Assembly: GCA_020425125.1 (NCBI GenBank)
Contig: JAGQRV010000067.1
Span: forward strand, 20,134-66,588
Source: Paracoccaceae bacterium
GTDB taxonomy: Bacteria > Pseudomonadota > Alphaproteobacteria > Rhodobacterales > Rhodobacteraceae
Length of the DNA: 46,455 nucleotides
Reading direction: 5' to 3'
Part shown: positions 18,240 through 44,147 of the stretch, one piece after another
How the letters are laid out: each line of letters begins with the position of its first letter
Numbering within the stretch: position 1 is the first letter of the stretch
Position numbers and translations under genes: made by a program
Notes under the pieces: model-generated
What the model was told of the DNA's origin: nothing
The model's database searches: none
Seen by the model: the letters and a program-made list of their open reading frames with translations, nothing else

Positions 18240-19972
18240 TGTCGTTCAAGCCACTTTCGGGCTTCGGCCGCGCCATCGGCGTGGCAGCCCTGACCGGCCT
18301 GCCGAGCCTCGCGCTCGCCGCCGGACCTGATCTCGGCCATGTCGAGAAGCAGGCCACCAACTACACCGCGATCGTCATGTTCGCGCTGTTCGTGATCATG
18401 ACCCTCTTCGTCACCAAGTGGGCTGCCGCAAAAACCAAGTCTGCGGCCGACTTCTACACGGCAGGCGGCGGCATCACCGGCTTCCAGAACGGTCTCGCGA
18501 TCGCCGGCGACTACATGTCCGCGGCCTCGTTCCTCGGGATTTCGGCGGCGGTCATGGCCTCCGGCTTCGACGGTCTGATCTACTCGATCGGCTTCCTCGT
18601 CGGCTGGCCGATCCTGACCTTCCTGATGGCGGAACGTCTCAGGAACCTGGGCAAGTTCACCTTCGCGGACGTGGCGGCCTTCCGCTTCGCCCAGACGCCG
18701 GTGCGGATGTTCGCGGCGGTCTCGACCCTCGTCGTCGTCTCGTTCTACCTGATCGCCCAGATGGTCGGTGCAGGTCAGCTCATCCAGCTCCTGTTCGGTC
18801 TCGACTACTGGATGGCGGTGGTGATCGTCGGTGGCCTGATGATGGTCTACGTGCTGTTCGGCGGCATGACGGCGACCACCTGGGTCCAGATCATCAAGGC
18901 GGGCCTGCTGCTTGGCGGTGCGACCTTCATGGCCTTCATGGTGATGCGCACCTACGGCTTCAGCCCGGAGAAGTTCTTCGCCGCGGCGGTCGACGTCAAG
19001 GCGCAGCTTGCCGCCAAGACGCCCGACACGACGCCCGAAGCCGCTGCCGCGGCCGGCCAGTCGATCATGGGACCGGGCAAGTTCATCAAGGATCCGATCT
19101 CGGCGATCTCGTTCGGTATGGCGCTGATGTTCGGCACCGCCGGCCTGCCGCACATCCTGATGCGCTTCTTCACCGTGCCGAGCGCCAAGGAAGCGCGGAA
19201 GTCGGTGATGTGGGCGACCACCTGGATCGGCTACTTCTACCTGCTGACCTTCATCATCGGCTTCGGTGCGATCACCTTCGTGCTGACCAACCCGGGCTTC
19301 CTCGACGCCAACGGTGATCTTATCGGCGGCAAGAACATGGCGGCCATCCATCTGGCCCATGCCGTCGGCGGGAACCTGTTCCTCGGCTTCATCTCGGCGG
19401 TCGCCTTCGCGACGATCCTCGCGGTGGTCGCGGGCCTGACCCTGGCCGGTGCCTCGGCGGTGTCGCATGACATCTATGCGACGATCATCAAGGGCGGAAA
19501 CGCCGATAGTGCCTCGGAACTGCGGATGTCGCGCTACACGGTGCTTGCGCTCGGTGTACTTGCGGTCCTGCTCGGCATCGTCTTCGAGAAGCAGAACATC
19601 GCCTTCATGGTCTCGCTCGCCTTCGCGGTCGCGGCTTCGGCGAACTTCCCGGTGCTGTTCCTGTCGGTGCTGTGGAAGGGCTGCACGACCTGGGGCGTGG
19701 TGATCGGCGGCTTCATCGGTCTGACCGTCTCGGTGGTGCTGACCATCCTGTCGCCCTCGGTCTGGGAAGCGACGCTCGGCCATCCGGTCGGATCGGCGCC
19801 GTTCCCCTACACCTCTCCGGCACTGTTCTCGATGACCGCAGGCTTTGTCGGCATCTGGCTCTTCTCGGTCCTAGACCGGAGCGCCCGCGGCAATGTCGAC
19901 CGCGCCGGGTTCGTGGCACAGCAGGTGCGCTCGGAAACCGGCATCGGCGCTGCCGAAGCCTCGGCGCACTGA
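18239..19972 (+). CDS. actP: Cation/acetate symporter ActP
   Basis: 577 residues of the sodium/solute symporter family. A signal-like hydrophobic N-terminus (Leu-Pro-Ser-Leu-Ala-Leu-Ala) precedes the first core helix. The following segments are characteristic of Act[21 protein letters not shown], [12 protein letters not shown], and [20 protein letters not shown]. The protein takes up acetate and other short monocarboxylates with a cation at the inner membrane. The loop around residues 255-280, with a Pro-Asp-Thr-Thr-Pro-Glu insertion, is longer than in the E. coli protein. I reject the long open frame back to 17351 because it covers the intergenic leader and overlaps yjcH. The sensor genes downstream suggest acetate-responsive control. 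Confidence 0.94.
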
Positions 19973-19988
19973 GTTCGGGAGGGGCGCC

Positions 19989-21500
19989 ATGGCGACAACC
20001 GGTTCGAACTCGCCGGGTCCGGCCACGGGCGCCCCGACTGATCCACACGGCTCCCCCCCGACGGGGGGGGCCGTTTCCGTCCGGCGGGAGCGCCGGGAAT
20101 TCGTGTCGCTGATGACGACCCCCGTGCGCGATGCCCTGGTGCACAAGCCCCTGTTCGTCGATGGCGGGACCGACCTCGTCAGCCTCTGCGGCGAGCTGTC
20201 GAGGCGTGGCCTTGGCGAAGCGCTGGTCCGCGACGATGGCCGCATCGGCATCTTCACCACCACCGACCTGCGCGACGCGCTGTTACACGGCGTACCGCCC
20301 GAGGCTCTGGAGGTGCGCGAGATCGCGCATTTCGATCCCTTCACGGTGTCGGCCGACGACGAGCTTTTCGACGCCCTGATCCTGATGCTGCGGCATCGCA
20401 TCCACCGCGTCCTTGTCCGGGAGGGCGACGAAGTCGTCGGGCTTCTGCGGCAGCTCGACCTGATGGCCTTCGTGGCCAGCCATTCCCATCTGATTGCGCT
20501 CAAGGCGTCGCACGCCTCGGACATTGCCGAGCTGGGCGAGGCGGCGCGTCAGATCGACGGCCTGATCCGCGTCCTGCACGAGGACGGTGTCCGCATCGAG
20601 GTGATCGCCGGACTCGTCGGTGGTCTCAACCGCCAGGTCTTCCAGCGTCTTTGGGAACTTCTGGCGCCCGAGCCGTTGCGCGCCAACAGCTGCGTGATCG
20701 TCATGGGCAGCGAAGGCCGCAACGAGCAGATCATCAAGACCGACCAGGATAATGCGCTTCTTCTGCGTGACGGATTCGAATTCGACGGGCTCGAGAAGAT
20801 CACACAGGCCTTCACCGACGCGCTCCTCGATTTCGGTTATCCGCTCTGCCCGGGCGGCATCATGCTCAGCCGCCCGCTCTGGTGCCAGCCGGTGGCCCGA
20901 TTCCGTGAGACGATGCGCGACTGGATCCATGGCAGTGATCCGGAAGGTCCGATGAACCTCGCGATCTTTCTCGACGCTGGTGCCGTCACCGGCGACGCCA
21001 CGTTGCTGGCCGAAGCACGGGACCATGTCGATCGCTTGCTGACCGGAAGCGATGCCTATTTCGCGCGCTTTGCGGCGGCGGTGGAACAGTTCCGGTCCGA
21101 CGGCAGCTGGTGGCGCCGCCTGCCGGGAATGCGCGGACGCGAGGCGGCTGAGGTCGACCTGAAGAAGCTTGGCATCTTCCCTCTGGTCCACGGCGTTCGA
21201 TCGCTCGCGCTGCAATATGGGATCCGCGCAGTGGGAACCATGGACAGGCTGACGGCACTGACGGCGGCAAATCGGATCGAGACATCCCGGGCCAAGGATC
21301 TGAGCGAGGCGCTGCGCTTCCTGATGTCGCTCAAGCTTGACAACAACCTCAGACAGATGGAGGCCGGCCGGACGCCCGACAACGCCATCCGCCTTTCCGA
21401 GCTTGGCACGCTGGAGCGCCAGACCCTGAAGGACTCGCTGGCGATCGTGCGCGACTTCCAACAATGGATCTCGCACCACTATCGGCTGGACGTCCTGTGA
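19989..21500 (+). CDS. CBS-pair / DUF294 nucleotidyltransferase-like signalling protein
   Basis: 503 residues. Two CBS motifs occupy about 40-160, with Ile-Phe-Thr-Thr-Thr-Asp-Leu-Arg-Asp and LLRQLDLMAF marking the two halves. The DUF294 nucleotidyltransferase core follows at about 237-260, containing GSEGRNEQIIKTDQDNALL (the GlnD-like Gly-Ser and Asp-x-Asp residues are present), and then the DUF294 C-terminal helical domain. Relatives often carry a cyclic-nucleotide-binding domain in front; this one does not. CBS pairs usually bind adenosyl ligands, so the protein may sense energy state and modify a partner. GGGAGGGG just before the ATG at 19989 fixes the start. It lies 16 bases after actP and overlaps the next gene by four. 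Confidence 0.87.
   Translation: MATTGSNSPGPATGAPTDPHGSPPTGGAVSVRRERREFVSLMTTPVRDALVHKPLFVDGGTDLVSLCGELSRRGLGEALVRDDGRIGIFTTTDLRDALLHGVPPEALEVREIAHFDPFTVSADDELFDALILMLRHRIHRVLVREGDEVVGLLRQLDLMAFVASHSHLIALKASHASDIAELGEAARQIDGLIRVLHEDGVRIEVIAGLVGGLNRQVFQRLWELLAPEPLRANSCVIVMGSEGRNEQIIKTDQDNALLLRDGFEFDGLEKITQAFTDALLDFGYPLCPGGIMLSRPLWCQPVARFRETMRDWIHGSDPEGPMNLAIFLDAGAVTGDATLLAEARDHVDRLLTGSDAYFARFAAAVEQFRSDGSWWRRLPGMRGREAAEVDLKKLGIFPLVHGVRSLALQYGIRAVGTMDRLTALTAANRIETSRAKDLSEALRFLMSLKLDNNLRQMEAGRTPDNAIRLSELGTLERQTLKDSLAIVRDFQQWISHHYRLDVL
20048..20073 (+). other. C7/G8 hairpin inside the start of the CBS/DUF294 gene
   Basis: A run of seven C (20053-20059) pairs with a run of eight G (20063-20070) around a GAC loop, extended by CGGC/GCCG outside with one bulge, and followed by TTTCC. 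It covers codons 20-28. It looks like a terminator or attenuator between actP and the sensor genes, yet lies within the best-supported reading frame. The homopolymers are also prone to slippage and sequencing error. Confidence 0.55.
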
Positions 21501-21730
21501 GCAGCGGGCGCGAACCGCGGCCGCGGCTTCTGATTGCGCTTTGCGCCGCCGGGTTCGTGCTGTTCAACTTCCCGCTCGTGATCGTCTGGGACAAGGACGT
21601 CACGGTCTTCGGCCTGCCGATGCTTCCGGTTGCGCTGTTCGTGATCTGGGGCGGACTGATCCTGGCGCTCGCCGCGGCGATGGAGCGTCGCGCTCCCCCG
21701 CGCGATGAGGACGGGCGCGAGCGGCGATGA
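21497..21730 (+). CDS. Small membrane protein preceding the symporter-kinase
   Basis: 77 residues starting at the GTG that overlaps the upstream stop (GTGA). Two membrane helices (about 10-30 and 38-58) are separated by a short loop with Trp-Asp-Lys-Asp and Phe-Gly-Leu-Pro; the tail is Arg-rich and cytosolic. The layout resembles the small two-helix subunits found next to sodium/solute symporters (DUF3311-like or YjcH-like), but I cannot name the family. Its stop overlaps the start of the histidine kinase gene (ATGA). I infer an accessory subunit of the symporter-like sensor. Confidence 0.75.
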   Translation: MSSGREPRPRLLIALCAAGFVLFNFPLVIVWDKDVTVFGLPMLPVALFVIWGGLILALAAAMERRAPPRDEDGRERR

Positions 21731-24480
21731 TCGCCGCGCCCCTCGTCCTGGCGGCTTCGCTTGCCTATCTGCTGACGCTTTTTGCCATTGCCGCCTTCGC
21801 GGATCGGCGTGCGACACAGGGAAGGTCGGTGATCGACAATCCCTGGATCTACGCGCTCTCCTGGGCAGTCTATTGTACCGCCTGGACCTATTTCGGCAGC
21901 GTCGGCACAGCCGCCGTGTCGGGCGTCTGGTTCCTGCCGATCTATCTCGGTCCGCTCCTCGCGATGCTCGTCGCCTGGATCGTCGTGCGCAAGATGGTGC
22001 GGATCGCGCAAACCTATCGCATCACCTCGATCGCGGACTTCATCGCCAGCCGTTACGGCACCAGTCCGATGCTGGCGGCCGTGGTTACGCTGATCACGGT
22101 GATCGGCATGGTGCCCTACATCGCGCTTCAGCTGAAGGCGGTCTCGGGCGGCTTCCATCTGCTGACCGCCGGCCCGACGCCGCACGCGGAGGCCGCCATT
22201 GTCTGGTGGCGGGACGGGGCACTTCTGGTTGCGCTGGCGATGGCGGCCTTTACCATCGTCTTCGGCACCCGCCACCTCGATGTCTACGAGCGGCACGAGG
22301 GCCTTGTCGCCGCCATCGCCTTCGAATCCATGCTCAAGCTGGTGGCGTTCCTCGCCGTCGGCGCGTTCGTGACCTGGGGGCTGTTCGGCGGCATGGGCGA
22401 CATCTGGGCTCGGGCGCAAGCGCTGCCGGAGCTGGACGGCCTGCTGCGCCTGGGCGGGGCGGAAAAGGCCGGCGCACCGGACTATGCCCGATGGTTCGCA
22501 CTGATCACCCTGTCCATGCTGTCGGCGCTGGTGCTTCCACGGCAGTTCCAGATGATGGTGGTGGAATGCGTGGGCGAACGGCACATCCGCCGGGCGGCCT
22601 GGGTCTTTCCCGCCTACCTTCTGCTGATCAATGTCTTCGTGCTGCCGATCGCAATCGGCGGACAGGTGCTGTTCGGCCCCGGCAAGATGGATGCCGAAAC
22701 CTTCGTTCTGTCCCTGCCGCTGACGCAGGGCGCGCACTGGCTGGCGCTGCTGGCCTTCGTCGGCGGATTGTCCGCCGCCACCGGCATGCTGATCGTCGAG
22801 ACGATCGCGGTCTCGACCATGGTCTGCAACGATCTGGTCATGCCGTCGCTGCTGAGGCTGCCAGGGTTCGGGACGCGGCAGGACGGCGATCTGACCCGGC
22901 TTCTGCTCAATATCCGGCGTGCGGCGATCGTCGGCATCCTGATGCTCGGCTATCTCTATTTTCGCATCGCCGGCAACGCCTATGCGCTGGTCTCGATCGG
23001 GCTGATCAGCTTTGCCGCTGTGGCCCAGGTGGCGCCCGCGCTTCTGGGCGGGATGTATTGGCGGGGCGCGACCAAGGCTGGCGCCTTCGGCGGGCTGATC
23101 GGCGGATTCGCGGTCTGGTCGTATACTCTGATGCTGCCGTCGCTGGCGAAGTCCGGCTGGATCCCCGGCGGCTTCATGGATGACGGCCCGTTCGGCATCG
23201 GTCTTCTGGCGCCAGAGCATCTGTTCGGCCTTACCGGGCTCGACAATCTCACGCATTCGCTGTTCTGGAGCCTGCTGGTCAACGTCACGCTCTATGTCGG
23301 CCTCTCCTTCGCACGGAACCCGTCCGCCCGTGAGGCGAGCCAGGCGCTCCTGTTCGCCGACGTATTCACGCGCGCGAACTCGTCCGACCCGGCGCCAGTC
23401 TTCTGGCGGGGCGCCGCACGCCTGGAGGACCTGCGGTCGCTCGCAGGGCGCCTGCTCGGGGCGTCCCGCGCCGACACCTTGTTCCAGGATCTGGCACAGC
23501 AGCAGGGCGTGGCGCCGCCGGATCTGGTTCCCGACGCCCGTCTGGTGGACCGCGTCGAGCGGCAGCTTGCCGGTGCCGTCGGCGCGGCATCCGCGCGCGT
23601 CATGGTGTCGTCGGTCGCGCAGGAGGAACCGCTGACCGTCGACGGTGTCTTCGAGATCCTCGAGGAGGCGTCGCAACTGCGAGGATATGCCCGTGCGCTC
23701 GAGGAAAAATCGCTGTCGCTCGAACAGGCGACGTCGGAATTGCGCGCCGCCAACGAGCAGTTGAAAAGCCTCGACCATCTGAAGGACGATTTCATGTCCT
23801 CGGTCACCCACGAGCTGCGGACGCCGCTGACGTCGATCCGCGCGCTTTCCGAGCTGATGCTCGACACGCCCGACATGGAAACGGAGCAGCGCGAGGAATT
23901 CCTGCGCATCGTGGTCTCGGAAAGCGAGCGTCTGAGCCGCCTGGTCAACCAGGTCCTCGACATGGCCAAGATCGAATCCGGCAACGCGGAATGGCGCAAC
24001 AGCGATGTCGACATGGGCGCATTGGTGAGCAATGCGGTGCGAGCCACGTCGGAGCTGTTCCGCGGTCGCCATGCTGCCGTGGAATTGAGCGTACCGGACG
24101 GCGGCGTTCCGGTGATCCGCGCCGATCCCGACCGGCTGACCCAGGTCATGCTGAACCTGCTGTCGAACGCCGCGAAATTCGTGCCGGAAGAGCACGGCAG
24201 GGTCCTGGTCGCCCTCGACAGCGACGAGGACGGTCTGACGGTCGAGGTCCGGGACAACGGACCCGGCGTGCCCCTGAAGGATCAGGCGAGTGTCTTCGAG
24301 AAGTTCCGCCAGGGTGGCGACGCCCTGACCCGCCCGGCCGGGACCGGGCTGGGGCTTCCGATCAGCCGCCAGATCGTCAATCATTTCGGTGGGCGCATGT
24401 GGCTGGATTCGCAGCCGGGCCAGGGCGCGTGTTTCGCGTTCTGGTTGCCGCTCGGGGCTCGGGAGGAGGAAGAGCCATGA
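21727..24480 (+). CDS. Sodium/solute symporter-type sensor histidine kinase (CbrA/CrbS-like)
   Basis: 917 residues. Residues about 1-510 are a sodium/solute symporter domain of about 13 helices. A linker (about 540-680) with a coiled coil (LEEKSLSLEQATSELRAANE) leads to the kinase: H box His695 in SSVTHELRTPL, N box QVMLNLLSNAAKF, G1 Asp-Asn-Gly-Pro-Gly-Val and G2 GTGLGLPIS. All catalytic motifs are intact. Family members couple a transporter-like domain to phosphorelay; CrbS in Vibrio and Pseudomonas governs acetate use, CbrA carbon/nitrogen balance. Downstream of actP an acetate-related role is plausible. No PAS domain was found. The start and stop overlap both neighbours by four bases. Confidence 0.93.
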   Translation: MIAAPLVLAASLAYLLTLFAIAAFADRRATQGRSVIDNPWIYALSWAVYCTAWTYFGSVGTAAVSGVWFLPIYLGPLLAMLVAWIVVRKMVRIAQTYRITSIADFIASRYGTSPMLAAVVTLITVIGMVPYIALQLKAVSGGFHLLTAGPTPHAEAAIVWWRDGALLVALAMAAFTIVFGTRHLDVYERHEGLVAAIAFESMLKLVAFLAVGAFVTWGLFGGMGDIWARAQALPELDGLLRLGGAEKAGAPDYARWFALITLSMLSALVLPRQFQMMVVECVGERHIRRAAWVFPAYLLLINVFVLPIAIGGQVLFGPGKMDAETFVLSLPLTQGAHWLALLAFVGGLSAATGMLIVETIAVSTMVCNDLVMPSLLRLPGFGTRQDGDLTRLLLNIRRAAIVGILMLGYLYFRIAGNAYALVSIGLISFAAVAQVAPALLGGMYWRGATKAGAFGGLIGGFAVWSYTLMLPSLAKSGWIPGGFMDDGPFGIGLLAPEHLFGLTGLDNLTHSLFWSLLVNVTLYVGLSFARNPSAREASQALLFADVFTRANSSDPAPVFWRGAARLEDLRSLAGRLLGASRADTLFQDLAQQQGVAPPDLVPDARLVDRVERQLAGAVGAASARVMVSSVAQEEPLTVDGVFEILEEASQLRGYARALEEKSLSLEQATSELRAANEQLKSLDHLKDDFMSSVTHELRTPLTSIRALSELMLDTPDMETEQREEFLRIVVSESERLSRLVNQVLDMAKIESGNAEWRNSDVDMGALVSNAVRATSELFRGRHAAVELSVPDGGVPVIRADPDRLTQVMLNLLSNAAKFVPEEHGRVLVALDSDEDGLTVEVRDNGPGVPLKDQASVFEKFRQGGDALTRPAGTGLGLPISRQIVNHFGGRMWLDSQPGQGACFAFWLPLGAREEEEP

Positions 24481-24836
24481 AGGTGCTGATCGCGGATGAC
24501 GAGCCCAACATCGTCATCTCGCTGGAATTCATGATGAAACGCGAAGGCTATGAGGTAATCGTAGCGCGGGACGGGAAGCAGGCGCTCGATGCGATCCGGC
24601 GCGAGCGACCGGCGCTCGTGCTGCTGGACGCGATGATGCCGGAGATGACCGGATTCGATGTCTGCGCCGCGGTCCGGTCGGACGAAACGGTGCGCGACAC
24701 GCGAATCCTGATGCTGACCGCCAAGGGCCGCGAGACCGACCTGGCGCGCGGCGCCGGCGTCGGCGTCGACGCCTACATGACGAAGCCGTTCTCGACCCGC
24801 GATCTCGTCGCCAAGGTGAAGGAGCTTCTGGCGTGA
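24477..24836 (+). CDS. Single-domain response regulator
   Basis: 119 residues, one receiver domain and nothing else. The acidic pair is Asp7-Asp8, the phosphoacceptor Asp51 (in LVLLDAMMPEMTGFD), the switch residue Thr81 and the conserved Lys103 in Met-Thr-Lys-Pro-Phe. There is no DNA-binding or enzymatic output domain, unlike CrbR or CbrB, which are full transcription factors. It should accept phosphate from the adjacent kinase and act by protein contact. The exonuclease/pseudo-kinase encoded next, or the CBS/DUF294 protein, are the obvious candidates. ATGA overlap upstream and GTGA overlap downstream. Confidence 0.94.
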   Translation: MKVLIADDEPNIVISLEFMMKREGYEVIVARDGKQALDAIRRERPALVLLDAMMPEMTGFDVCAAVRSDETVRDTRILMLTAKGRETDLARGAGVGVDAYMTKPFSTRDLVAKVKELLA

Positions 24837-26986
24837 AGGTCGACCGCGGACTTGTGCTGGCAATGGTGCTGCCTGGACTCCTGCTGGCGATCTGGCTGGT
24901 GGCCGGCGTTGCCCTGCTTTGGGTTACGCTCGATGCGGCGCAGCGGGGGGCCATCGGCGCGGCGGTCGGTCCGCTGGTCGAAACTCACGGCGTCCTTCCC
25001 TTTGCCTGGTGGGCCGTCGCTGCCGGGCTGGCGGCCTGGGCGGCCCAGCGGCTTTACGTTGCCCATGTTCAGCCGCACGCGCGACTGACGGACGCGACCC
25101 GAGTTCTTTTGCGCGATCCGCGCGCGCCCGCGATCGAGGCGCCGACAGTCGCAGTCGGCGATCTGACCGGTGCCATCAATGCGCTGGCGGACGAACGGCG
25201 CGCGCTTGTCGAGAACACGGAGCGGCTGGTGGCGGAGGCCAGCCGCGGCGTCGCCGAGGAACGGGACCAACTCGGCGCGCTGATGGCGGAGCTGCATCAG
25301 AGCGTCGTGGTGTGCAACCTCGCGGGACGGATGCTGCTCTACAACGGCCGTGCGCGCAGCTTGTTTCGCCGCCTGTCGCAGGCGCCGCGCGCGATGGGCG
25401 GGTCCGAACTGGTCGGGCTCGGCCGTTCGATCTTCGGCGTGATCGACCAGGCGCTGATCGCCCACGCGCTGGAGACCGTCGAACGGCGCATCGCGCGCGG
25501 CGAGGCGACGGTAACGACGCGCTTCGTCACCGGGACGCCCGCCGGCCATCTGCTGCTCGTCAGCCTCGCTCCGGTCCGGCCCGCCACCCGCGACGGCGCG
25601 TTGACCGGGTACGTTCTGCTGCTCGATGACATTACCGACGATTATGCCCAACAGTCGCGGCGCGACGGGCAGCTTCTGGAACTCACCGAGGCGAGCCGGG
25701 CTTCGCTCGCGAGCGTACAGGCGGCACTCGACATGCTCGAATATCCCGATCTCGGTCCCGAAGACCGCGAGCGGTTCCATGGCGTTGTGCGCGAGGAAGT
25801 CGCCGCGATGGGACAGCGCCTTGCCGCGCTGGATGCCGGCGCGTCGCAGGATCTGATGACGCGTTGGCCGTTGCAGGAAATGCTGGCCACCGACCTGGCC
25901 GCCGCCGCCGCGCGGCAGATCGAGGCGGCAACCGGCCGGCCGGTCGCAGTGGCGGAGGTGGAAGCCGATCTCTGGATCAACGTCGACAGCTTCGCCCTGA
26001 TCGAGGCGTTGTCCTTCCTCGGGCGCCGTCTTGCAGACGCCTTCGACCAGACCGAATTCCGCCTGCGTCTCTCCGGCGCTGGCACCCGCGCGCATCTCGA
26101 CCTGATCTGGACCGGCGGGAACGTGTCGTCCGAGACGCTGGCAGACTGGGAATCAGGGCCAATGCAGATCGGCGGTGAACGCTCGCCCCTGTCCGTGCGC
26201 GACGTGGCCGAGCGTCATGGCGGCGAGGTCTGGTTCGAGCGGGACCGGGGGCAGGGGCCGGGATTCTTCCGTTTCCTTCTGCCGCTGGCCTCGGTGGAAC
26301 TCGATGCCGCGGCGCCTTTGGCCGCGCGCCCCGAATTCTACGATTTCGACCTGTTTGCCGCCACCGAGTCGACAAACGCTCTGGACGACAGGCCGCTGAC
26401 CGAGCTTGCGTATACGGTCTTCGATTCCGAGACGACCGGTCTCGACCCCGCCAGCGGCGACGAGATCATCCAGCTTGGCGCGGTGCGGATCGTGAACGGC
26501 AAGCTCCTCCGCGGCGAGAGCTTCGATCAGCTGGTCGATCCCGGGCGCAGCATTCCCGAAGCCTCGATTCCATTCCATGGCATCCGGCCCGAAATGGTGC
26601 GCGGCCAGCCGCTGATCGGAGAGGTCCTGCCCGCCTTCCATGCCTTTGCCGAGGACACGGTGCTGGTCGGTCACAACGTCGCCTTCGACATGCGCTTCCT
26701 GAAGCTGAAAGAGGACACGACCGGCGTGCGGTTCGAACAACCGGTTCTGGACACGCTGCTGCTTGCCAGCGTGGTGCATCCCAAAGAGGAAAGCCAGAGC
26801 CTCGAAGCCATTGCCGGGCGGCTGGGAGTGGAGGTTCGGGCGCGGCATTCGGCGGCCGGTGACGCGCTGACGACCGCGCAGGTCTTCCTGAAGATCCTGC
26901 CGCTTCTGGGCGAGCGGGGCATCTCCACGCTGGGTGCAGCGCGGGCGGCGTCGGAAAGCTCCTATTACGCCCGGTTGCGCTATTGA
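24833..26986 (+). CDS. Membrane PAS / degenerate kinase / DEDDh exonuclease fusion
   Basis: 717 residues starting at a GTG inside the upstream stop. Two membrane helices (about 8-32 and 58-78) lead to a linker helix, then a PAS-like segment (about 150-270). A kinase-shaped region (about 280-490) lacks the H-box His and the N-box Asn but ends in HGGEVWFERDRGQGPGFFRF, like HATPase domains. A DnaQ-type 3'-5' exonuclease runs from about 525 to 700, with all catalytic residues: Asp531, Glu533, Asp619, His672 and Asp677. The exonuclease should be an active nuclease on DNA, RNA or small oligonucleotides in the cytosol, tethered to the membrane. Inference: a receptor whose nuclease is controlled by the receiver or kinase next door. 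Confidence 0.88.
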   Translation: MKVDRGLVLAMVLPGLLLAIWLVAGVALLWVTLDAAQRGAIGAAVGPLVETHGVLPFAWWAVAAGLAAWAAQRLYVAHVQPHARLTDATRVLLRDPRAPAIEAPTVAVGDLTGAINALADERRALVENTERLVAEASRGVAEERDQLGALMAELHQSVVVCNLAGRMLLYNGRARSLFRRLSQAPRAMGGSELVGLGRSIFGVIDQALIAHALETVERRIARGEATVTTRFVTGTPAGHLLLVSLAPVRPATRDGALTGYVLLLDDITDDYAQQSRRDGQLLELTEASRASLASVQAALDMLEYPDLGPEDRERFHGVVREEVAAMGQRLAALDAGASQDLMTRWPLQEMLATDLAAAAARQIEAATGRPVAVAEVEADLWINVDSFALIEALSFLGRRLADAFDQTEFRLRLSGAGTRAHLDLIWTGGNVSSETLADWESGPMQIGGERSPLSVRDVAERHGGEVWFERDRGQGPGFFRFLLPLASVELDAAAPLAARPEFYDFDLFAATESTNALDDRPLTELAYTVFDSETTGLDPASGDEIIQLGAVRIVNGKLLRGESFDQLVDPGRSIPEASIPFHGIRPEMVRGQPLIGEVLPAFHAFAEDTVLVGHNVAFDMRFLKLKEDTTGVRFEQPVLDTLLLASVVHPKEESQSLEAIAGRLGVEVRARHSAAGDALTTAQVFLKILPLLGERGISTLGAARAASESSYYARLRY

Positions 26987-27004: not shown

Positions 27005-29437
27005 TCAGGCGTTGACGGTCCGACCCGCGCCGGTCGTCGTTCCGTCGGCCGGTTCGAGTGCGGCTCGAATGGCGTCGTCGACAGTCTCGATCCAGACGAA
27101 GCCCAGCCTGTCGCGTGCCTCTTTCGGGATGTCGTCGTAGTCGCGGCGGTTCCGCGCCGGAAGCAGAACCTGAGTCAGCCCGGCCGAAGCCGCCGCGACA
27201 ACCTTTTCCTTGATCCCGCCGACCGGCAGGACGAGGCCCCGAAGCGAAATCTCGCCGGTCATCGCCGTGTCGCTGCGAACCTTCCGGTCGGTCAGCAGGG
27301 ATACCAGCGCGGTGTAGAGCGCCACGCCGGCACTCGGTCCGTCCTTCGGGATCGCGCCCGCCGGGATGTGGATATGGATGTCGCTCTTGGCCAAGACCTC
27401 CGCGTCGACGCCGAGAGACCCGGCGCGGTTCTTGACCAGTGTCATCGCCGCTTGCGCGCTTTCCCGCATCACGTCCCCAAGCTGACCGGTCAGGATCAAC
27501 GCGCCCTTGCCCTGCGCCCGGCTCGCCTCGATGAACAGGATGTCGCCGCCGACCGGCGTCCAGGCCAGGCCGGTGGCGACGCCGGGCAGGCTGGTCCGCA
27601 TGGCGACCTCGTTCTCGAACCGGGGCGCGCCGAGTATCGCGGTCAGGTCGGGAGCACCGATCTCGACATGCTCGGCCTTGCCTTCGGCGATGCGGACCGC
27701 GGCGTGGCGCAGGACCGCGCCGATCTCGCGTTCCAGATTGCGCACCCCGGCTTCGCGGGTATGGCCCCGGATGATCGCGCGGATCGCATCGTCGCTTAGT
27801 TCGGCCTGCCCCGGCGCGAGCCCGTTCGCCTCCATCTGCCGGCCGACGAGGTAGCGCAGCGCGATCTGGAGCTTCTCCTCTTCGGTATAGCCTGCGAGGC
27901 TGATCACCTCCATCCGGTCGCGCAGCGGTCCCGGAACCGTGTCGAGCACGTTCGCCGTGGCGATGAAGACGACCCGGGAAAGGTCGAAATCGACACCGAG
28001 GTAGTTGTCGCGGAAGGTCGCGTTCTGCTCGGGGTCGAGCACTTCGAGCATCGCCGCGGACGGATCCCCCTGAATGCCCCGCCCCAGCTTGTCGATCTCG
28101 TCGAGCATCATCACGCAGTTGCGTGACCCCGCACGGCGGATCGCCTGGATGATGTTGCCGGGCATGGCGCCGATATAGGTGCGCCGGTGACCGCGGATTT
28201 CCGCCTCGTCATGGACACCGCCAAGGCTGACCCGCACGAAGGACCGGTCCATCGCCCGAGCAATCGATTGTCCGAGAGAGGTCTTCCCGACCCCCGGCGG
28301 CCCCGCGAAGCACAGAATCGGCGCCTTGCCGCCCGGTGCCAGCTTGCGAACGGCGAGAAATTCTAGAATCCGGCTCTTGATCTTGTCGAGCCCGTAATGG
28401 TCGGCATCGAGGATCCGGCGGGCCTCGGCGATGTCGATGGGCGACGGCTCGGGCAGACGCCAAGGCAGCGCGATCATCCAGTCAAGCCATGTCCGCACCA
28501 TGCCCGCTTCGCCCGCAGCCTCCGGCATCCGTTCATAGCGGCGAAGCTCCCGACGCACCTGCTCCTCGACCTCGGGCGGCATTTCGGCCTTCTCGATCGC
28601 CGCGGACAGTTCGGCCACCTCGCCGGCACGGCCGTCGCCTTCCCCGAGTTCGCGCTGGATCGCGGCCATCTGTTCGCGCAGCACTGCCTCGCGCTGGCGT
28701 TCATCGAAGGCGGCACGGGTCTGCTGGCCGATCTCGCGGCTGATCCGCAGCACCTCGATCCGCCGCGCCAGGATCCGGGAGACCTTGTCCATCCGCTGCG
28801 CAAGGTCGAGCGTTTCCAGAATGCCCTGCTTCTCTGCGGCGGGGATGTCGAGATAGGCGGTGGTCAGATCGGCGAGGGCTCCGGCTTCGGTCATGCCCCT
28901 GACCGAGTCCGCAAGGCCCTGCGGCGCCTGCGGCAGAAGCTCGATCGCCTCGACGGCCTGTCCCTTGAGATGAAGGAACCGGGCCTCGATCTCGGGTTGG
29001 GGACTCGGGGTCTCGGCAATCGTCTGAAATCGCGCCATCGGGAAGGGCGTCCCGCGCAACACCTCCAGGATGCGGAATCGGCTGACGCCCTGGCAGACCA
29101 CATGGTGCGCTCCATCCGGGGTCGTGACGTAGCGCAGGATATTGGCGACCGTTCCGACACGGCAGAGAGCTCCTGCCTCCGCACCCTCCTGTTCGGGCTG
29201 ACGCTCCAGAACTACGCCAACCTGGCGCTCCTCGCGCACCGCCTGCTGGATTGCCGCAATGGTGGGCGCGCGCCCGATCACCAGCGGCACCACCAGGCCC
29301 GGAAACAGCACTGAGTCCCTGACCGGGAGCAGGATGATGCCGTCTTCAGGAACCGGAACGGAGTCCTTCGGTTGCGCCGGGGCAGCTGCGGGGCCGGTGT
29401 CCTTGTCGCTTTTCTCGGAGCCGCCGAACAGCTTCAT
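27005..29437 (-). CDS. lon: ATP-dependent protease Lon
   Basis: 810 residues with the full Lon order: N-terminal substrate domain (about 35-230), coiled region, AAA+ module (Walker A GPPGVGKTS, Walker B Met-Leu-Asp-Glu-Ile-Asp-Lys) and the protease domain with Ser702 in Lys-Asp-Gly-Pro-Ser-Ala-Gly and Lys743 in GGIKEK. It degrades misfolded and regulatory proteins in the cytosol. The start overlaps the stop of the Hsp20 gene in an ATGA, so chaperone and protease are made together. The first 30 residues are a low-complexity Lys/Asp/Pro extension. The usual housekeeping lon lies next to clpX or hupB; this context suggests a second, stress-linked Lon paralogue (inference). Confidence 0.95.
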   Translation of the reverse strand: MKLFGGSEKSDKDTGPAAAPAQPKDSVPVPEDGIILLPVRDSVLFPGLVVPLVIGRAPTIAAIQQAVREERQVGVVLERQPEQEGAEAGALCRVGTVANILRYVTTPDGAHHVVCQGVSRFRILEVLRGTPFPMARFQTIAETPSPQPEIEARFLHLKGQAVEAIELLPQAPQGLADSVRGMTEAGALADLTTAYLDIPAAEKQGILETLDLAQRMDKVSRILARRIEVLRISREIGQQTRAAFDERQREAVLREQMAAIQRELGEGDGRAGEVAELSAAIEKAEMPPEVEEQVRRELRRYERMPEAAGEAGMVRTWLDWMIALPWRLPEPSPIDIAEARRILDADHYGLDKIKSRILEFLAVRKLAPGGKAPILCFAGPPGVGKTSLGQSIARAMDRSFVRVSLGGVHDEAEIRGHRRTYIGAMPGNIIQAIRRAGSRNCVMMLDEIDKLGRGIQGDPSAAMLEVLDPEQNATFRDNYLGVDFDLSRVVFIATANVLDTVPGPLRDRMEVISLAGYTEEEKLQIALRYLVGRQMEANGLAPGQAELSDDAIRAIIRGHTREAGVRNLEREIGAVLRHAAVRIAEGKAEHVEIGAPDLTAILGAPRFENEVAMRTSLPGVATGLAWTPVGGDILFIEASRAQGKGALILTGQLGDVMRESAQAAMTLVKNRAGSLGVDAEVLAKSDIHIHIPAGAIPKDGPSAGVALYTALVSLLTDRKVRSDTAMTGEISLRGLVLPVGGIKEKVVAAASAGLTQVLLPARNRRDYDDIPKEARDRLGFVWIETVDDAIRAALEPADGTTTGAGRTVNA

Positions 29438-41839: not shown

Positions 41840-42259
41840 TCAGACCTCGTAGAACTCCACCGGCAGCCCGTCCGGGTCGGCGCAGAAGGTGAAACGGCGG
41901 CCGGTATATTCGTCCGTGCGGACGGGCTCCACCGCGACGCCTTTGGCTTCGAGCCGCTCGACCGTGGCGTCGATATCCGGCGTGGCGAAGGCGATGTGGC
42001 GCAATCCGATGGCCTCGGGGCGCGACGGGCGGGGCGGGGCGCCGGGGAAGGTGAAGAGCTCGATCCCGATGCCCGAGGGATGGCGCAGGTCGACCTTCCA
42101 GCTGTTCCGCGCATCGCGAAAGTTCCGCGCGATCTCGACGAAGCCGAGCGCGCCGCACCAGAAGGCAAGGCTGGCGTCGAGATCCGATGCGATAACCGCC
42201 ATATGGTGCAAGCGGGAAATTGGGGGCACGTTCTGACGCTCTGTCTTCCGCGAAGCCAT
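41840..42259 (-). CDS. VOC-family protein, YaeR-like
   Basis: 139 residues of the glyoxalase/bleomycin-resistance (VOC) fold. The first beta-alpha unit has the metal-ligand His in Leu-His-His-Met-Ala-Val-Ile; then come FRDARNSWKVDLRHP and Pro-Arg-Pro-Ser-Arg-Pro-Glu-Ala, then GLRHIAFATPDID and FCADPDGLPVEFYE with the closing Glu. This pattern is that of E. coli YaeR. Metal-dependent chemistry is likely; the substrate is unknown. It starts 8 bases after the HEPN gene and may be the tail of that operon. Confidence 0.86.
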   Translation of the reverse strand: MASRKTERQNVPPISRLHHMAVIASDLDASLAFWCGALGFVEIARNFRDARNSWKVDLRHPSGIGIELFTFPGAPPRPSRPEAIGLRHIAFATPDIDATVERLEAKGVAVEPVRTDEYTGRRFTFCADPDGLPVEFYEV

Positions 42260-42267
42260 GGCAGTCT

Positions 42268-42969
42268 CTAACCCACAATCCGTTGATTGAATCCCAATTC
42301 AGCGGGTTCGAGTTTTTCGCTGCCAGTTCTCAGCCCTAAGCTGATCGCTTGAAAATAATGAAGCGAATATCGACGCCAGATGTCTCGGTCCTCCTCGGGA
42401 CTCATGCTTTCTCCCATGACAATCAATCGAAGATTCTGGCGGATGTTGTCACCCAGCCGAACGCAGGCTGCTACTTCGTTAAAAGTTGGGTAGTTCCTCT
42501 TCATTTCAATCGCGGCGTGGGCGATCTCTCGATTGCGGAATGAATTGAGTGAGGCTAGGTGCGGTCTAATCAGGCTCATGTCGAGACGTATTTCTTTTAG
42601 GAGGTCGTCTAGTGTTTGCTGGCTGCGCTTGACCCTATCCCGCTCGTAGGCAATTGACGGCCACTCAGAGATCTTGCTGCAAATCGTTCTGCGAATCTCT
42701 GATATTGCCAGATTCTCTTGGATGGCGGCGACGCACGCATATGACTTGGTCTTGTCTGAGACACTGATCAACAACGAAGATACGGCGCGCTGGACAAGAG
42801 AGGAGAATACCAGTCGGTGAACGTGGTTGGAGTAAGTGCCGTTGACGGCTTTCCCAAAATCCTCCTGTTCGTTGCCGGTCCAAGCCGTGTCGAAGCAAAC
42901 AGAGGCAATCCTGAGGTTTTGGCAGACAGTTGTGGTTTGGCCGCGCAACTTGCCAATCAGGTCGCTCAC
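42268..42969 (-). CDS. AbiU2-like HEPN-domain protein (putative RNase toxin)
   Basis: 233 residues starting at the GTG that overlaps the VWA gene stop (GTGA). The protein is helical and charged. Residues about 107-152 resemble the AbiU2-type HEPN core, with the RNase motif Arg145-Asn-Arg-Glu-Ile-Ala-His151 (R-N-x4-H). HEPN toxins cut RNA, and AbiU2 relatives belong to abortive-infection loci. Hand counts give about 45-48% GC in sampled 60-base lines, against about 68% in the VWA gene, so it looks horizontally acquired. It nevertheless overlaps a native operon. No antitoxin gene is obvious. The HEPN motif is seen; toxin function is inferred. Confidence 0.75.
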   Translation of the reverse strand: MSDLIGKLRGQTTTVCQNLRIASVCFDTAWTGNEQEDFGKAVNGTYSNHVHRLVFSSLVQRAVSSLLISVSDKTKSYACVAAIQENLAISEIRRTICSKISEWPSIAYERDRVKRSQQTLDDLLKEIRLDMSLIRPHLASLNSFRNREIAHAAIEMKRNYPTFNEVAACVRLGDNIRQNLRLIVMGESMSPEEDRDIWRRYSLHYFQAISLGLRTGSEKLEPAELGFNQRIVG

Positions 42970-44147
42970 GTCAGCACCTTCACGCCCCGGCCGATCCCGT
43001 CCAGCGTCATCGGCACCATGCGGTGTTCGAAGATGTCGCGGATCATCCCGATCGACTGGGTGTAGTCCCAGAATTTCTCGGGCACCGGGTTGATCCACAG
43101 ATGGTCCGGCCATTGCGCGCAGGCGCGGCGCAGCCAGGTCTCGCCCGACTCCGCGTTCCAGTGTTCGTTGGCGCCGCCGGGATGGAGCACCTCGTAGGGG
43201 CTCATCGACGCGTCGCCGACGAAGATGCACTTGTAGTCGGGTCCGTAGGTATGCAGCACGTCCCAGGTCGGGGTCTGTTCGGTCCAGCGCCGGGTGTTGT
43301 CCCGCCAGACGCCTTCATAGAGGCAATTGTGGAAGTAATAGTGTTCGAGGTGCTTGAACTCGGCGCGGGTGGCCGAGAAGAGCTCCTCCACCACCTTCAC
43401 GTGGTCGTCCATCGAGCCGCCATTGTCGAGGAAGAGCAGCACCTTGACCGCGTTGTGCCGCTCGGGGCGGGTCTTGACGTCGAGGTAGCCGTGCTCGGCG
43501 GTCGAGCGGATCGTGCCGTCGAGATCCAGTTCCTCGTGCGCGCCTTCGCGGGCCCAGCGGCGCAGACGCTTGAGCGCCACCTTGATGTTGCGGGTGCCGA
43601 GTTCGACCTGGTCGTCGAGATTGCGGAATTCGCGCTTGTCCCAGACCTTGACCGCGCGCCGGTGGCGGCTTTCGTTCTGGCCGATCCGCACGCCTTCGGG
43701 ATTGTAGCCATAGGCGCCGAAGGGCGACGTGCCGGCGGTCCCGATCCATTTCGACCCGCCTTGATGGCGGCCCTCCTGTTCCTTCAGGCGCTCCCGCAGG
43801 GTGTCCATCAGCTTGTCGAAGCCGCCGAGCGACTGGATCGCTTCCATCTCCTCGGGGGTGAGGTGCTTTTCGGCCATCTTCTTCAGCCAGTCGGCGGGAA
43901 GCTCCACATTCTCCAGCATCGCCCCGAGGTCGATCGACTCGATCCCCTTGAACGTCTCGGCGAAGGCCCGGTCGAAGCGGTCGAGATGGCGTTCGTCCTT
44001 CACCATCGCGGTCCGGGCGAGATAATAGAATCCTTCGATGTCGTAATCGACGAGCCCCGCCCCGACCGCTTCGAGGAAGCCGAGATACTCCCTCAGCGAT
44101 ACCGGCACGCCGGTCTTCCGCAGGATCTCGAAGAAACGCAGGAACAT
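42966..44147 (-). CDS. VWA-domain protein, CoxE-like
   Basis: 393 residues. The N-terminal two thirds is the charged helical CoxE/YehP-like region. The VWA domain begins near 235, with the metal site Asp241-Asn-Gly-Gly-Ser245 in LLFLDNGGSMDD. CoxE-like VWA proteins work with MoxR AAA ATPases as metal- or cofactor-insertion chaperones. A moxR gene heads this operon, which fits. I place the ATG at 44147; the longer frame runs into the upstream small gene. The stop overlaps the HEPN gene by four bases. Confidence 0.9.
   Translation of the reverse strand: MFLRFFEILRKTGVPVSLREYLGFLEAVGAGLVDYDIEGFYYLARTAMVKDERHLDRFDRAFAETFKGIESIDLGAMLENVELPADWLKKMAEKHLTPEEMEAIQSLGGFDKLMDTLRERLKEQEGRHQGGSKWIGTAGTSPFGAYGYNPEGVRIGQNESRHRRAVKVWDKREFRNLDDQVELGTRNIKVALKRLRRWAREGAHEELDLDGTIRSTAEHGYLDVKTRPERHNAVKVLLFLDNGGSMDDHVKVVEELFSATRAEFKHLEHYYFHNCLYEGVWRDNTRRWTEQTPTWDVLHTYGPDYKCIFVGDASMSPYEVLHPGGANEHWNAESGETWLRRACAQWPDHLWINPVPEKFWDYTQSIGMIRDIFEHRMVPMTLDGIGRGVKVLT

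Follow-up and report, generated by a model that had tools for sequence, protein, structure and literature searches.

Receivers usually act through an output domain to which they are fused or through a partner protein. DivL of Caulobacter crescentus is described as a PAS-bearing kinase fold in which a tyrosine replaces the phosphoacceptor histidine and the other kinase boxes are kept. Its binding of the phosphorylated receiver, DivK~P, uses the interface that is canonical for receivers, and this binding is disrupted when R553, three residues beyond Y550, is changed to alanine; the preference for the phosphorylated form is set by the PAS domains. According to the same account, the DHp-CA part of DivL is frequently absent in lineages that lack DivK (PMC4211667).

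A second described system concerns a nuclease. PP_0353 of Pseudomonas putida KT2440 is an RNase_T protein whose gene shares an operon with that of PP_0354, a CBS-domain protein, and the two belong to the MxtR/ErdR (CrbS/R) regulon. Deletion of PP_0353 is reported to slow growth when pyruvate is supplied but not with 20 mM acetate, and deletion of PP_0354 to have no such growth phenotype; the authors speculate on mRNA decay. The homologs of this pair adjoin actP in P. aeruginosa PAO1 (PMC9927547). In P. fluorescens, Pflu5625 is described as a member of the CrbS/R regulon with CBS and nucleotidyltransferase domains, the deletion of which had a negligible effect on growth on acetate (PMC5715377). 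From that description, by analogy, PP_0354 probably carries DUF294 as well.

The CrbS/R and RpuS/R systems are described as tied to carboxylate transporter genes (PMC5715377, PMC9100948). For Pseudomonas CbrA, another SLC5-STAC kinase, the structure of that part was determined together with CbrX, a small protein of two helices (PDB 10ED; PMC13022988). In this report, we describe a locus to which these are the closest known systems. Its last gene is best explained as encoding a membrane-anchored DEDDh exonuclease, with predicted 3'-5' activity, in which a repurposed histidine-kinase core serves as the control module.

Operon and domain architecture

The stretch of DNA analysed here (the window; 46,455 nucleotides from a Paracoccaceae bacterium) contains an operon whose genes all lie on the plus strand. 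It begins with a cation/acetate symporter, ActP (18275..19972, with a provisional start), within a longer open frame that runs from 17351. There follow a CBS-DUF294 nucleotidyltransferase (19893..21500), identified by Pfam and by its GS-x10-D-x-D motif; a small protein of 88 residues (21464..21730), seen as an open reading frame that overlaps the start of the kinase gene by 4 bp; an SLC5-STAC sensor histidine kinase of 917 residues (21727..24480), with HisKA and HATPase_c matches, intact kinase boxes and no receiver of its own; and a single-domain receiver (REC) of 119 residues (24477..24836), assigned by Pfam and alignment. The fusion gene comes last (24833..26986; 717 residues by the reading-frame list and translation), just where the initial annotation had placed it. 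Its start codon, GTG, overlaps the stop of the receiver gene, the two genes sharing the 4-bp overlap GTGA (24833-24836).

Residues 8-629 of the kinase match PDB entry 10ed in a sequence search (E 7.9e-72), and residues 1-620 have no Pfam or NCBIfam match. The protein is thus an SLC5 and STAC part, recognised by the 10ed match, joined to a kinase core recognised by Pfam. For the 88-residue protein, no family rose above cut-off in profile searches; by position and size, it is perhaps a CbrX-like subunit. An SLC5-STAC kinase is common to this operon and to CrbS/R, RpuS/R and CbrA/B. CrbS and RpuS, however, are hybrid kinases that work with LuxR-type regulators, whereas the kinase of the window is non-hybrid and its receiver has no DNA-binding part. 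Of the 87 long-flank loci, which extend 5 kb or more to each side, 80 contain DUF294, 66 the symporter, 60 the SLC5 kinase and 66 the receiver. In Paracoccus denitrificans (L010), too, the fusion gene is accompanied by receiver and kinase.

The structure prediction that the initial annotation had proposed as a check was made with AlphaFold2 from the 60-row family alignment; the model has a mean pLDDT of 86.8, and a kinase fold is seen in it. The membrane anchor (residues 5-94; 24845..25114) is assigned from predicted helices and hydropathy. Its first helix (TM1, 5-32) is clear by hydropathy, and the second (54-94) is less hydrophobic, none of its 19-residue windows reaching 1.6; of the two membrane helices proposed at the outset, one is therefore clear and the other weaker, and a pair is likely. 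A long helix (109-153) precedes the PAS-like domain (157-266; 25301..25630), in which the order of strands and helices in the model is that of a PAS domain. In the window protein, PAS_4 scores 18.7 bits, below the cut-off of 23.1; it is matched by 39 of the 60 family members at E<=0.05 (best 2.5e-9), which bears out the annotated PAS-like region. The middle part consists of a pseudo-DHp hairpin (268-343; 25634..25861), modelled as helices 268-302 and 309-343, and an alpha/beta domain (348-485; 25874..26287) that forms a pseudo-CA, HATPase-like, domain. A low-confidence linker (488-504) leads to the exonuclease domain, which begins at residue 526 (526-700; 26408..26932) and was assigned by Pfam, alignment, model and structure match.

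Pfam RNase_T covers residues 529-685 of the exonuclease (E 5.3e-35, above cut-off). The five catalytic residues of the DEDDh (RNase_T, DnaQ-like) family are in place in the fold as D531, E533, D619, H672 and D677. All 60 rows of the family alignment (A1; 59 relatives together with the window protein, P0001) have them, as do all 81 rows of a close set made up of P0001, the same gene refetched (L081) and 79 homologs, L072 having been left out as truncated. The intact set of active-site residues that had been read from the one sequence is thus a property of the family. By sequence and structure matches, the domain is nearest to those of PolC-type and DnaQ exonucleases, a resemblance that does not fix its substrate. 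The fusion differs from these enzymes in that it has no polymerase, is membrane-bound and carries a signalling module.

We regard PP_0353 as the likely standalone counterpart of the fusion, a comparison made at family level and by description. In both cases an RNase_T gene has a CBS-domain partner gene (CBS-DUF294 in the window) and is tied to two-component signalling by an SSS/STAC kinase; an actP gene belongs to the operon here and adjoins the P. aeruginosa homologs of the P. putida pair. The published description of PP_0353 differs in that it mentions no membrane, PAS or pseudo-kinase part and in that control is transcriptional, via ErdR.

A kinase fold stripped of its catalytic residues

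In the window protein, neither HisKA nor HATPase is matched by Pfam, and HisKA is matched in 5 of the 60 family members (best E 0.0024). A profile-profile comparison (hhalign) was more telling: residues 268-490 align with histidine-kinase cores over 213 of 223 columns, with a probability of 99.0 and an E of 5.2e-18. The kinase-core profile comprised 102 rows, the window's own kinase and 101 others from the fetched loci, all 102 having the His, the N-box Asn and the G1 Asp. None of these rows lies inside a fusion protein, and the comparison is therefore not circular. As controls, 20 column shuffles gave probabilities of at most 0.6 and the reversed profile 0.7. A structure search with the whole fusion model (VIA-align 2) was filled by exonuclease matches; the middle part was therefore folded alone, and it gave structure matches to histidine kinases. 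Profile comparison, model and structure matches thus concur on a DHp and CA fold, as the initial annotation had supposed when it called the region kinase-shaped. That annotation was to fall if the middle region had no PAS or HATPase similarity; such similarity is present, and the reading stands.

The residues on which kinase activity depends are gone. At the position of the phosphoacceptor His the window protein has E286, and the 60 rows of A1 have 41 Glu, 5 Asp and no His. The N-box Asn is replaced by R399 (Asn in 1 of 60 rows), and the G1 Asp by W426 (55 Trp and no Asp in 60 rows). The lost His and N-box Asn of the initial annotation are thus confirmed, and the loss extends to the G1 box. 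No row with His at this position was found when an active-kinase ancestor was sought among the A1 relatives down to 26% identity. Because His is absent from all 60 aligned rows, we consider its loss to be old rather than a sign of decay. Other positions are held firmly: H462 is invariant, and R289, E322, D385 and W426 are nearly so. The neighbours stand in contrast to this dead kinase, for the six box residues that were checked are kept in 121 of 121 aligned SLC5-STAC kinases, and every one of the 162 receivers aligned has its phospho-Asp and Lys.

R289, an Arg in 55 of the 60 rows, lies three residues beyond the lost His and so matches the position of R553 in DivL. The two proteins have in common the lost phosphoacceptor, this same Arg, PAS domains, a single-domain receiver as partner (at the level of the gene, for the fusion) and a similar joint loss of receiver and kinase part. 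DivL, by contrast, keeps the N and G1 boxes, acts on the kinase CckA and has no nuclease part in the published description. The fusion has neither box; it is therefore not filed as a DivL, and we make no claim of orthology.

Retention of the hairpin with the receiver gene

If the dead kinase is a docking site for the receiver, its survival is expected only in loci that have a receiver. In every locus, the hairpin was scored with a hidden Markov model and a single-domain REC gene was sought upstream on the same strand; the threshold for hairpin presence, 10 bits, was chosen after the scores had been seen. The locus sources, a set of genome contigs and further genomes, overlap. Counting started from 222 sources, less 14 locus ids: 13 repeats of loci already counted (L153, L159 and L160 were judged to be repeats by their identical scores, and other near copies may remain) and L161, which has no exonuclease domain. 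From the 208 left, L012, L072, L073, L133, L154 (which has a REC) and L181 were set aside for having less than 2.1 kb upstream of the exonuclease domain.

Upstream DNA sufficed in 202 loci. Hairpin and REC occur together in 160 of these, 35 have neither, five have the hairpin only (L047, L048, L051, L067, L093) and two have REC only (L116, L204). In the 182 that are fusions, defined by an exonuclease start no earlier than residue 400 of the frame, the corresponding counts are 160, 15, 5 and 2 (Fisher p 6e-16, uncorrected for kinship). L047, L048 and L051 retain a weaker hairpin (40-46 bits) without REC, and in L116 and L204, where the hairpin score is poor beside a REC, a shortened hairpin is nevertheless discernible in the alignment. 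When the 40 REC-less loci were rechecked, REC-like matches (24-66 bits) were found elsewhere in seven of them (L093, L110, L113, L114, L118, L120 and L121).

Each of the 20 REC-less fusions was compared with its five nearest REC-bearing relatives, using models built from REC-bearing rows. A score below 0.7 of that of kin was found for the DHp hairpin in 19, the CA domain in 11, the anchor in eight, PAS in one and the exonuclease in none; among REC-bearing rows, DHp scores are equally low in 10 of 162. Decay in REC-less fusions is centred on the hairpin, with CA declining as well. The single exception, L067, keeps its hairpin without REC, and its genome has a second operon copy with a kinase, a receiver and, where the contig ends, the first part of another fusion. 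The anchor and PAS domains separate the receiver from the hairpin, so that one deletion does not explain their joint loss. The initial annotation's suggestion of signal control is strengthened by this pattern of genes, the hairpin being mostly kept beside a receiver gene and mostly eroded without one.

Two further analyses bear on the strength of the association. Seven of the REC-less rows (L201, L106, L212, L107, L103, L211 and L129) form one clade, and the 20 REC-less fusions are therefore not 20 events. A tree-corrected test found seven independent pairs on well supported branches, of which on average five changed in the same way, none in the opposite way and two were equal, a borderline result (median p 0.0625, range 0.031-0.25); on a tree of the exonuclease domain there were five pairs (median p 0.125). 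Across 162 pairs of REC and fusion, the hairpin was not favoured by mutual information, with 5 of the top 100 pairs versus 10.8 expected. The control of REC versus true kinase was itself weak (39 versus 31.7 expected), and the co-variation test is therefore of little power; it lends no support to docking.

Proposed control of the exonuclease, and alternatives

We propose that the SLC5-STAC kinase would sense a small carboxylate, of the acetate or pyruvate class, and phosphorylate the free-standing REC. The receiver would then dock on the pseudo-DHp hairpin of the fusion, as DivK~P does on DivL, and the PAS-DHp-CA module would reshape, switching the nuclease domain behind its flexible linker (488-504) on or off. 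The nuclease may trim the 3' ends of RNA or of another nucleotide-bearing target, and in one pathway with the CBS-DUF294 nucleotidyltransferase it might adjust carboxylate uptake or use. As the explanation of the whole, control running from kinase to REC to pseudo-kinase to nuclease is, in our judgement, modestly probable; within it we infer the docking, the gating, the signal, the direction of control and the substrate.

The link to the nucleotidyltransferase comes from gene arrangement. Exonuclease, CBS and DUF294 occur in one protein in L110, L117, L118 and L121 (the four reading frames scanned with Pfam), and in L119 and L122 DUF294 has as its neighbour an exonuclease that is 234 or 244 residues long. 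The one-protein forms and the DUF294 neighbour suggest that the two enzymes may share a pathway, perhaps the addition and removal of nucleotides. The one-pathway step is weakened by P. putida, where deletion of PP_0354 had no phenotype and deletion of PP_0353 had one.

Among the alternatives, the least improbable is a role of the pseudo-kinase as a regulator of phosphate flow: its target would be the SLC5 kinase, which it would join in mixed dimers or rival for the receiver, the exonuclease being a separate output. The presence of the SLC5 kinase in the same operon in 60 of the 87 long-flank loci agrees with this. So do the genomes of L047, L048, L051, L077 and L093, in which the best SLC5-kinase matches cover the kinase core only (completeness being reported only for that of L093); receiver and SLC5 kinase are both missing there, and the two are therefore indistinguishable as partners. 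On the other hand, 9 of the 66 REC-bearing long-flank loci have no adjacent SLC5 kinase, and the hairpin scores at least 57 bits in eight of the nine. REC is the more constant neighbour of the fusion. Moreover, a nearly full-length SLC5-kinase match (40-45% identity) was found elsewhere in 12 of 12 checked genomes of the window's family, whether the hairpin was kept or not. We consider this alternative unlikely.

It is quite unlikely, too, that a ligand is sensed by the PAS and pseudo-kinase domains themselves and the nuclease gated independently of the receiver, which would act elsewhere, for example in motility or transcription. PAS outlasts REC and hairpin in all but one of the 20 REC-less fusions, and several fusions retain the pseudo-CA without REC, which speaks for this view. 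Against it stands the close coupling of hairpin and REC, and no ligand site was identified in the fusion.

Improbable, in our estimation, is the view in which a former kinase survives in the middle part as no more than a passive spacer and the protein serves constitutively as a membrane exonuclease in housekeeping or repair. The missing His, N-box Asn and G1 Asp and the likeness to PolC-type and DnaQ proofreading domains are in keeping with it. The invariant and nearly invariant residues of the pseudo-kinase, and a loss centred on one domain, are not what a spacer would give. The breadth of conservation argues against it as well, the best 80 loci, in alpha-, beta- and gammaproteobacterial records, being 46-68% identical.

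These 80 are the best of 433 loci: a relative of the fusion is encoded by 433 of 473 pattern-matched stretches in genome contigs. Among 398 genomes drawn from the phylum, 46, that of the window among them, have a match that reaches the pseudo-kinase part, with a query start no later than residue 410. Matches at E<=1e-45 occur in 85 of 198 genomes of the window's family; in 41 of them the match lies in the pseudo-kinase part, and in 44 it covers only the exonuclease part, the frames being 460-688 residues long. In one other family, 60 of 250 genomes match at E<=1e-60. Finally, the widespread full-length relatives and the loss of His common to all 60 rows rule out a recent pseudogene or a chance fusion.

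Control of the nuclease through the receiver and the former kinase thus remains our preferred reading. The component parts of this system are known; their arrangement, and the evidence of a dead kinase kept for a receiver, were not found described among the open-licence papers listed. None of the listed titles and abstract openings mentions a fusion of this kind, which does not imply its absence from print, and no open-licence paper was found for DUF294 in combination with exonuclease; PMC5436829 contains none of six nuclease or locus terms. The initial annotation's statement that no function is described for the combination accordingly holds for the fusion itself, as far as that search extends, and not for its standalone counterpart, PP_0353, which has been tied to the MxtR/ErdR regulon and to growth on pyruvate (PMC9927547).

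A more far-reaching version, which we offer tentatively and as a rather doubtful one, is that the two-component system has a nuclease as its direct output. Phosphorylated REC would dock on the dead kinase as an input port, and carboxylate would change RNA or nucleotidylated targets without a transcription factor, with a putative writer (CBS-DUF294) and eraser (the exonuclease) encoded together and, in some lineages, as one protein.

If the preferred reading is true, an output enzyme reads a receiver through a former kinase, which is the DivL arrangement with an enzyme as the output. It would give a testable function to a family whose pseudo-kinase part occurs in 41 of the 198 sampled genomes of the window's family, and also to an exonuclease partnership whose growth phenotype, though known, is unexplained.

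Surroundings of the fusion gene

The gene encoding the fusion of membrane anchor, PAS, pseudo-kinase and DEDDh exonuclease (24833-26986, + strand) is faced by a Lon protease gene (27005-29437, - strand) that runs towards it, and the stops of the two genes lie 18 bp apart in the window. Base composition dips at 42001-44000, where G+C falls to 0.603 vs. 0.64-0.69 in the remaining 2-kb steps.

A small protein preceding the SLC5-STAC kinase

The reading frame of an 88-aa protein (21464-21730, + strand) runs into the first bases of the SLC5-STAC kinase gene. The protein's position relative to this kinase is equivalent to that of CbrX relative to the Pseudomonas kinase CbrA (PMC13022988). By this positional analogy, it is perhaps a small subunit of the kinase.

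Variant architectures in related loci

Among the loci compared, L110, L117, L118 and L121 encode a single protein of 704-819 residues that unites the exonuclease, two CBS domains and a DUF294 nucleotidyltransferase; L120 resembles this form, as judged by tblastn only. The receiver-exonuclease pair occurs twice within L068 (520-14518), the second time with no adjoining SLC5 kinase. In L045 and L052 (8950-9609), the kinase adjoining the receiver matches the kinase core only (47-48%), and the SLC5 part is absent; hence, the input seems to have been swapped there.
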